In this document: piece after piece, positions 14,525 to 31,719 of the stretch
Numbering within the stretch: the stretch's first letter is position 1
Layout of the letters: every line of letters begins with the position of its first letter
Assembly: GCA_016186695.1 (NCBI GenBank)
Contig: JACPLC010000003.1
Span: 1 to 49,318, forward strand
Length of the DNA stretch: 49,318 bases
Origin: Candidatus Kaiserbacteria bacterium
GTDB taxonomy: Bacteria; Patescibacteriota; Minisyncoccia; Phycocordibacterales; UBA2100
Reading direction: 5' to 3'
The notes under the pieces: generated by a model
Database searches by the model: none
Told to the model about the DNA's origin: nothing
The model's input: only the letters and a program-made list of their open reading frames with translations
Made by a program: the position numbers and the translations under genes

Positions 14525-14543
14525 AAAAAAAGTATATCACGTG

Positions 14544-14703
14544 TGCCGGGAGAGAGACTTGCCCGCGGCTCTCGGCTCGTCGTCACTCGCCTCGGCCTGG
14601 GCACCAGCTCGCAGCCTCGCGTGCTCGCTCGGCATCGCTCCGCTGTTCAAGTCTCTCACGCTGCGTGCGCAGGCACGCAGCTTCCCAATGCTCGCTTCGC
14701 GAG
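14544..14703 (-). mobile_element. tRNA-Leu 3'-end-associated element (about 160 bp)
   Basis: The element follows the 3' end of tRNA-Leu(CAA). Plus-strand positions 14543-14561 repeat 14703-14721, i.e. the tRNA discriminator, acceptor strand and part of the T-arm (19 identical bases, 160 bp apart). Between them lie a 9-bp hairpin with a 4-base loop (14660-14681), an inverted exact 13-base copy of the T-arm (14645-14657) and a GC-rich core that is homologous to the element after tRNA-Lys (24893-25056). Confidence 0.65.
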
Positions 14704-14787
14704 TGCCGGGAGAGAGACTTGAACTCTCATGACCTTGCGGTCGAACGATCTTGAGTCGTTTGCGTCTGCCAATTCCGCCATCCCGGC
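14704..14787 (-). tRNA. tRNA-Leu (anticodon CAA)
   Basis: Acceptor GCCGGGA/TCCCGGC with discriminator A, GG-containing D-loop, anticodon loop CTCAAGA, long variable arm and T-loop TTCAAGT. No encoded CCA. Position 37 is G, so it lacks the A36-A37-A38 target preferred by the neighbouring MiaA. Confidence 0.95.
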
Positions 14788-24819: not shown

Positions 24820-24892
24820 CCGCCCGTAGCTCAACTGGTAGAGCAGCCGCCTCTTAAGCGGTTGGTTCCGCGTTCGAGTCGCGGCGGGCGGA
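24820..24892 (+). tRNA. tRNA-Lys (anticodon CTT)
   Basis: Acceptor CCGCCCG/CGGGCGG, discriminator A, anticodon loop CTCTTAA, T-loop TTCGAGT. No CCA encoded. Its last 17 bases plus two are repeated at 25038-25056. Confidence 0.95.
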
Positions 24893-25056
24893 CACGAACG
24901 GAGTGAGTGCCGCTCGAGCAGTGTGCCTTCGCACACTGCGTCCCGACGAGAACGCCGGAGCGATGAGAGGCGAGCTCGCCGAGCAGCGAGGCGGTGCCCA
25001 GACCGAGGCGAGCGACGGCGAGCCGAGAGTCGAGGGAGAGTCGCGGCGGGCGGACA
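24893..25056 (+). mobile_element. tRNA-Lys 3'-end-associated element (about 162 bp)
   Basis: 25038-25056 is an exact 19-base direct copy of 24876-24894 (T-arm half, acceptor strand, discriminator). Inside are hairpin GCAGTGTGC-CTTC-GCACACTGC (24918-24939), a partial inverted T-arm copy (24940-24953), a GGCGAGCTCGCC palindrome and the core GGTGCCCAG-CCGAGGCGAG-GACG-CGAGCCGAGAG that is shared with the element after tRNA-Leu (14544-14703). Order and spacing are the same in both. Confidence 0.65.
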
Positions 25057-31050: not shown

Positions 31051-31719
31051 ATGGAGTTGTATCATGTGTTGAACAGAGGAACCGAGAAACGCGACATATT
31101 CATGGACGATCGCGATCGAGCGCGCTTCGTGCATGACCTGTTCGAATTCAACGACACAAAACCCGCGAGCAACGTCGCATATTCATTCAAAAGAAATATG
31201 GATGTCGGACATCCATATATTGAGCGGGAGCGAATCGTCGATCTTCATGCATGGTGTCTAATGCGCAATCACTATCACCTTCTAATCTCCGAACGAATGG
31301 ATGGTGGTACCACCACGTTTATGCGAAAGCTCAACACTGGATATACCAACTATTTCAACGAGCGGTACAAACGCAGCGGCGTGCTTTTTCAGGGAAAAAC
31401 AAAGAAAGTTCTCATCCATTCACGAGCACATTTTTTGCATGTCATCCACTACATTCACCTAAATCCCCTGGACTACGTTTCAAGCGCACGGGAGTGGCGA
31501 AACGGCCGAGTCGCTGACGCCGCGACTGCAAAGAAACGTCTTGAACAGTATCGCTGGAGCAGCTTCTTGGATTATTCCGGAAAAAAGAATTTCCCCTCTG
31601 TCCTATACCCCGACTTCTTTCGGGACGCCATCGGCGACGTGGGAAAGAAGACTCTGGAGTATCTCGGCAAGCCGCGTAACGCGCTTGACGATACGTTGCC
31701 TTCCCGATTTCTCGAGTAA
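31051..31719 (+). CDS. REP-associated tyrosine transposase (RAYT, Y1 HUH family)
   Basis: 222 residues of the IS200-like Y1 transposase superfamily. ELYHVLNRGTEKRDIF (first strand), HUH motif in LMRNHYHLLI, catalytic tyrosine region FMRKLNTGYTNYFNERYKRSGVLFQG, and the RAYT-typical HFLHVIHYIHLNPLDYV and YRWSSFLDY. All key residues are present. The N-terminus begins slightly later than in typical RAYTs. A copy of its own palindrome (31196-31218) is read in frame as NMDVGHPY between strands, so activity may be altered. Single copies of the same palindrome flank it. Confidence 0.9.
   Translation: MELYHVLNRGTEKRDIFMDDRDRARFVHDLFEFNDTKPASNVAYSFKRNMDVGHPYIERERIVDLHAWCLMRNHYHLLISERMDGGTTTFMRKLNTGYTNYFNERYKRSGVLFQGKTKKVLIHSRAHFLHVIHYIHLNPLDYVSSAREWRNGRVADAATAKKRLEQYRWSSFLDYSGKKNFPSVLYPDFFRDAIGDVGKKTLEYLGKPRNALDDTLPSRFLE
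31196..31218. repeat. RAYT palindrome, copy inside the transposase gene
   Basis: ATATGGATGTC-G-GACATCCATAT, perfect arms of 11 bp; in frame within the coding sequence. Confidence 0.88.

Follow-up and report, generated by a model that had tools for sequence, protein, structure and literature searches.

Directly behind the transfer RNA (tRNA) gene tRNA-Leu(CAA), on a 49,318-nucleotide stretch of a Candidatus Kaiserbacteria genome (contig JACPLC010000003.1, hereafter the window), a 141-bp insert lies between two exact copies of the end of this gene and carries a hairpin, an inverted copy of the T-arm and a conserved core that recurs in related bacteria. The best reading of these sites is a family of mobile hairpins with guide-like complementarity to their targets, i.e., short, gene-less and strongly structured mobile elements of the Paceibacteria and close relatives that would insert as a folded DNA strand. 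To this explanation taken as a whole, folded-strand mechanism included, we give an even chance. Read on the minus strand from the tRNA-Leu(CAA) gene, the order is X, spacer, P1, the dinucleotide GT, RC1, core, X' and the parB promoter:

14703..14787, minus strand: tRNA-Leu(CAA), the target gene, regenerated and apparently intact (ARAGORN).
14703..14721, minus strand: X, the gene-proximal copy of the tRNA tail, from the T-loop to discriminator +1 (exact 19-base repeat).
14682..14702, minus strand: spacer, with a small hairpin TCGCGAAGCGA and RC2 (TTGGGAA), a partial complement of the acceptor tail (from the sequence).
14660..14681, minus strand: P1, a 9-bp hairpin GCTGCGTGC-CTGC-GCACGCAGC (from the sequence; pairing kept across the family).
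14645..14657, minus strand: RC1, a guide-like complement of the tRNA-Leu insertion junction GTTC|AAGTCTCTC (13 bases, exact).
14562..14644, minus strand: conserved structured core with P2 and P3 domains, GGAGCGATG ... GCGAG ... CGACG ... (alignment and covariation of 87 distinct copies).
14543..14561, minus strand: X', the displaced original tRNA-Leu tail, adjoining the parB promoter (from empty sister genomes).
14531..14536, minus strand: parB -10 box TATACT (promoter assigned by sequence only).

The 19-base tail at 14703-14721, GTGCCGGGAGAGAGACTTG on the plus strand, is found again at 14543-14561, making two occurrences in the window and none on the opposite strand, and RC1, the inverted T-arm, reads GAGAGACTTGAAC on the minus strand. 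The original prediction, made from the sequence, had already pointed to the exact 19-base direct repeat of the gene end, the exact 13-base inverted T-arm and a 9-bp hairpin in the insert, all of which were recovered at these positions; its insert of 140 bases is one base too short. When the tail was compared with 481 other 400-bp pieces of the window, the longest matches were 10 bases direct and 10 inverted, against the 19 and 13 observed, and the tail repeat and inverted T-arm are not due to chance.

The corresponding locus exists in both an occupied and an empty state. In genomes G000, G024 and G069 the element stands between two tails, and in G026, G075 and G070 a single tRNA tail abuts the parB -10 box with no insert, a clean empty site that bears out the suggestion that the tail repeat is the footprint of an insertion at a tRNA gene. 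Because it is the tRNA tail itself that abuts the box in the empty sisters, 14543-14561 represents the original tail position, and the 19 bases upstream of the box are old tRNA tail with or without the element; the further proposal that the element brings in this upstream sequence does not hold. The elements of G024 and G069 have a degenerate X' in common and are taken as orthologous; in both, RC1 and RC2 are intact, and the sequence of P1 is wholly different yet still paired.

A covariance model built from 20 copies gives 343 matches in 45 of 52 congeneric genomes, with a maximum of 19 per genome and no match in the other 7, and in a class-wide sample of 237 genomes it detects copies in 80, a lower bound because strict filters were applied. 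When named GTDB genomes were scanned for an exact pattern, nearly all that matched were Patescibacteria (Kaiser-, Nomura-, Taylor-, Yanofsky-, Adler-, Vogel-, Yonath-, Komeili-, Falkow- and Moraniibacteria, as well as two labelled Saccharibacteria), apart from a few chance-like matches. Judged by its congeners, the bacterium that carries the window is probably a Kaiserbacteria-like Paceibacterium. The original prediction had supposed an undescribed family of small tail-regenerating elements that includes a case at tRNA-Lys, and had proposed looking for tail duplications with a shared core behind the tRNAs of related genomes: these are present in the 45 congeners, the core is shared and the tRNA-Lys element is homologous, but the targets are wider than tRNA genes and include transfer-messenger RNA (tmRNA), topA and other protein genes. 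No description of the family was found in the open-access literature, subscription journals and preprints being largely outside this coverage, and no Rfam family fits the element at E up to 5, where only the tRNA itself and chance matches were returned. Carriage by phages was rejected, the one match in 2.9 million viral contigs lying without tRNA or element context and being attributable to chance. A grouping of copies by target was also rejected: nearest neighbours come from the same genome in 26 of 126 cases (shuffled mean 5.8) and from the same tRNA in 6 (shuffled mean 2.5), i.e., they share genome more than tRNA.

The unit has a constant order, in which hairpin P1 is followed by RC1, an 11-13 base complement of the junction, and then by a core of ~85 bases. 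In two sets of matches, 70 of 87 and 65 of 75 lie on the same strand directly 3' of a tRNA or tmRNA gene (within 450-500 bp), and several of the 17 exceptions in the 87-match set actually follow a tmRNA or an intron-containing tRNA; more than 40 gene or anticodon classes are used as targets. In the main class the direct copy starts at tRNA position 57, TTC|GATTCC, the junction falling between T-loop positions 56 and 57. A second class, whose junction is at the discriminator, is separated from the tRNA by 8-14 bp, and its gene end, P1 and RC1 together make up a single long hairpin. In several main-class copies, clearly in L034, L021, L107 and L149, the complement also spans the acceptor tail and is split in the order RC2 - P1 - RC1. 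The gene end from the junction onward is duplicated, leaving the gene whole, with a fixed right junction and another end that varies, from ~17 to 90 bases. Among protein genes, topA is used repeatedly, with the junction some 57-90 bases before the stop codon; ~90 bases are duplicated behind the core in L249 and 57 in L293, and RC1 is complementary to the respective junctions CAC|AAAAACT and CAC|GAAAACAAT. Other such targets are a gene resembling rpsI and a family whose members end in MMGSSQ* (names by sequence reading), and in the well-matched protein-gene cases the duplication extends to about the gene end.

Some arrangements depart from this scheme. In L084 (1200-1640) and L075 the element lies behind an apparent intron-containing tRNA with a group I intron-like 3' part (...GAAGATACAGTCTAATCC...), so that a single gene seems to combine an intron with a tail element. 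In L229, L263, L309, L319 and L245 it follows a promoter-like stretch directly (e.g. GTTCGCGCAAAGTGTATAATTACAGCA), with a tRNA-like tail copy and no tRNA gene, and these are possibly stand-alone transcribed copies. Tandem elements occur in L021, L076, L083, L121 and G022:C20:46106-46386; in L121, the second element has an RC1 that fits the right end of the first one (GACCGAG), so that the junctions of elements also serve as targets for other elements. Upstream of the elements in L035, L283 and L111, ARAGORN predicts tRNA-Stop(tta) and tRNA-SeC genes.

The inverted T-arm proves to be a junction complement proper to each site, differing between copies whose cores are nearly identical. Elements match their own gene over 10.0 bases inverted and 14.5 direct, compared with 5.7 and 5.4 for other tRNAs. 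RC1 spans the junction, from 2-4 bases upstream to 7-10 downstream, differs from its own gene in 0-7% of cells over tRNA positions 54-62, tracks rare T-loop variants such as GTCC and GTGC, and has 1.25 mismatches in 9 to the functional gene against 2.03 to the displaced tail. Cores 95% identical are found at tRNA-Arg in G027 and tRNA-Lys in G000, and pairs 93% identical link tRNA-Gly with tmRNA and tRNA-Gly with tRNA-Val across species. For core pairs of at least 85% identity with different T-arms, RC1 departs from its own gene by 0.53 mismatches in 10 and from that of the partner by 1.96, and the identity of P1 is only 0.48, its sequence turning over within the family with pairing kept. As near-identical cores thus stand at different genes, with a locally matching RC1 and a dissimilar P1, the core is mobile, and RC1 and P1 do not merely travel with it.

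In the present genome, the element sequence used as query identifies two further copies, at tRNA-Lys(CTT) in the window (24918-25055) and at tRNA-Pro(GGG), both followed by a copied tail; at tRNA-Pro(GGG) the inverted T-arm is nearly exact, over 12 bases, and at tRNA-Lys(CTT) it is degenerate. The covariance model adds a copy at tRNA-Val(CAC) and one weak match, for a total of four confident copies. The second element of the window comprises:

24820..24893, plus strand: tRNA-Lys(CTT), its target (ARAGORN).
24918..24939, plus strand: P1 hairpin (from the sequence).
24942..24953, plus strand: RC1, poor, with 4 mismatches in the 9 bases past the junction (from the sequence).
24954..25037, plus strand: core, 95% identical to the tRNA-Arg(CCT) core of another species (L031; by comparison).
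25038..25055, plus strand: X', an exact 18-base copy of the tRNA-Lys tail (from the sequence).

The predicted helices show strong covariation. Over the 87 distinct copies, 95.1% of cells are paired, all 31 predicted pairs change on both sides, and the covariation score of 0.822 compares with 0.219 for shuffled alignments and at most 0.104 for slid ones. G.U pairs make up 2.2% of cells in the element helices and 31% of the non-Watson-Crick cells, against 4.0-4.2% and 78-89% in the stems of 406 tRNAs of the same loci, a low share that favours a structure kept as DNA, or by template switching. In the predicted RNA fold of the whole transcript, the second tail completes the tRNA and the element becomes a very large insertion in its T-loop. 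In L244 (2181-2400; G310:C40), the T-loop of tRNA-Ser(GGA) is interrupted by an element that lacks the first copy of the tail, and no other Ser(GGA) copy was found in this genome, rated 100% complete; this gene may be intron-like or a pseudogene.

These observations can be accommodated by a mechanism in which the unit would work as a folded strand of DNA. The RC1 adjacent to P1 would pair with the target over the junction, in the manner of the guides of IS200/IS605 transposition, and would thereby set the position at which an enzyme acting in trans cleaves and joins; the tail duplication would arise from strand-displacement copying past the junction. The complement itself could be chosen beforehand as a guide, written in from the target at insertion, or perfected later by template switching in the inverted repeat. 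The stronger proposition, that of a new class of mobile DNA in which a 120-base hairpin core would, upon insertion, write the complement of its target into itself and would leave the gene whole through duplication of the 3' end, falls somewhat short of an even chance.

Several points weigh against the explanation preferred here. A pre-set guide leaves the different complements on near-identical cores unexplained, and therefore one extra step has to be assumed. The alignment behind the G.U argument is model-fitted, some of the P3 pairs on which it partly relies fit one subtype only, and the DNA fold of single copies is only mildly better than shuffled (z -1.66). No autonomous version and no excised form was seen, and no enzyme was found among the five protein families tested (PF01548, PF00078, PF01797, PF01798 and PF00589): IS110, reverse transcriptase, Y1 transposase and Nop did not track copy number. 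IS110 (DEDD transposase PF01548) is seldom found in the genus, and element-rich genomes are without it. Reverse transcriptase shows no correlation with copies and is absent from most element-rich genomes (G024, G027, G004, G028 and G031), and the Y1 transposase gives a Spearman coefficient of -0.12, with G004, G019, G012 and G073 element-rich without it; both were accordingly rejected as movers. The Nop domain (PF01798) was detected in none of the 52 congeneric genomes, although divergent Nop domains could escape. Tyrosine recombinase (PF00589) is single copy in element-rich genomes, where it is presumably the housekeeping Xer, and none was found in G006. Possible movers are the housekeeping Xer, some protein not yet characterised, or natural transformation, for which genes of competence are widespread in the group. 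An IS110-family-like transposase gene does lie beside one copy (L077, 1289-2410), ~330 bp upstream of a tRNA-less element and divergent from it, but an IS110 bridge RNA was rejected given the lack of IS110 in element-rich genomes. The window itself contains a Y1_Tnp match at 31225-31392 on the plus strand (REP-type transposase, E 1.9e-6) within a 248-aa open frame, one of the three that the genome contains.

Four other explanations have to be weighed. The element could act at the RNA level, as an intron-like or guide-RNA element with RC1 as an internal guide over the T-loop junction, the gene ending in either tail and the RNA inserting or splicing, possibly with later reverse transcription. 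The strong covariation and the predicted transcript fold agree with this view, as do the interrupted tRNA-Ser(GGA) of L244 and the precise right and variable left ends, which resemble the products of target-primed reverse transcription; however, G.U pairs are not favoured over other mismatches, an intrinsic-terminator-like hairpin stands between gene and element in many copies (e.g. L034 and L005), neither an intron nor a ribozyme of Rfam matches, reverse transcriptase is mostly missing as noted above, and L244 is without a clear P1, so that we regard an RNA-level element as unlikely. The inverted repeat of gene end and element might instead serve the host, as a domesticated terminator, replication or processing signal, its core being occasionally transferred. 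Such a role would fit the one long terminator-like X-P1-RC1 hairpin of copies close behind the tRNA, and the survival of RC1 and RC2 in the orthologous G024/G069 pair despite a decayed second tail and a replaced P1. It is improbable given a patchy presence (the 7 congeners without match, and the same locus empty in sisters), a conserved core that a terminator does not need, and tail duplications with near-identical cores at unrelated genes, which are signatures of insertion.

It is also conceivable that the elements are mobile, with the complementarity of RC1 and P1 maintained solely by quasi-palindrome correction (template switching, X...RC) and without guide function. This would account for P1 and RC1 that differ between near-identical cores yet stay paired, for the few wobble pairs and for RC1 following the functional gene more than the displaced tail, but it leaves unexplained both the wholly different RC1 behind topA and the constant start of RC1 2-4 bases upstream of the junction, and we accord it little probability. 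Finally, tail repeats from T-loop to gene end are the usual footprint of integrase elements, such as phages and integrative and conjugative elements (ICEs), and the sites could be scars of such elements at tRNA T-loops that have lost their interior. The same conserved core in a constant architecture at so many gene and anticodon classes, and the use of protein-gene and discriminator sites, make this very improbable. No large versions were seen, no copy having genes between gene end and element; L071, L077 and L275 are without an upstream target gene, and L275 shows no integrase, nor do element-rich genomes hold an extra one.

Patescibacteria represent a very large, mostly uncultivated share of bacterial diversity with very small genomes, and here as many as 19 sites in a single genome carry an element that is described in none of the libraries searched. 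Should the complement prove to be a guide, or to be gained at insertion, the elements would represent guide-directed insertion of a kind different from that of IS110, CRISPR transposons and introns, and a harmless targeting of gene ends, if true, would be of interest to genome engineering. The testable question raised is whether the inverted copy of the target is created when the element lands.

Because each defining protein or motif tested failed, the element is not assigned to any known family, but it shares traits with several. As in tyrosine-recombinase elements at tRNA genes (prophages, ICEs and tycheposons), the tRNA 3' end is duplicated from the T-loop, the gene is regenerated and sisters have empty sites; unlike these, which have one fixed target per type, the present element is ~140 bp long, gene-less and without dedicated integrase, carries a complement of its target, and has its core at dozens of different genes. 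With IS200/IS605 and repetitive extragenic palindromic (REP/REPIN) elements it shares, as far as sequence geometry goes, a guide flanked by a subterminal hairpin and complementary to the site of cleavage (P1-RC1), and also a structure that probably acts as DNA; the 10-13 base guide differs in every present copy, in contrast with those systems, and the tail duplication is long. IS110/IS1111 bridge RNA and TIGR-Tas resemble it in being structured units with target-matching segments and palindromic stems. However, element-rich genomes lack IS110 transposase, the genus has no recognisable Nop-domain protein, and two short spacers are replaced here by one contiguous complement plus a gene-length direct copy. 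TIGR-Tas is the nearest guide system reported in bacteria of the candidate phyla radiation (CPR), which carry Tas relatives (PMC12045711). Like the internal guide sequence of group I/II introns, the guide spans the junction, and the transcript can fold as a T-loop intron, but the gene is already whole through its first tail, the core is far smaller and no Rfam intron model matches at E up to 5. Integron attC sites are also folded strands with inverted repeats, whereas the present copies show no gene cassettes between them and lack the GTTRRRY core at the discriminator and topA junctions. Finally, unlike miniature inverted-repeat transposable elements (MITEs), with their fixed terminal inverted repeats and fixed-length duplication, the present arms equal the target and differ per copy, and the duplication ranges from ~17 to 90 bases.
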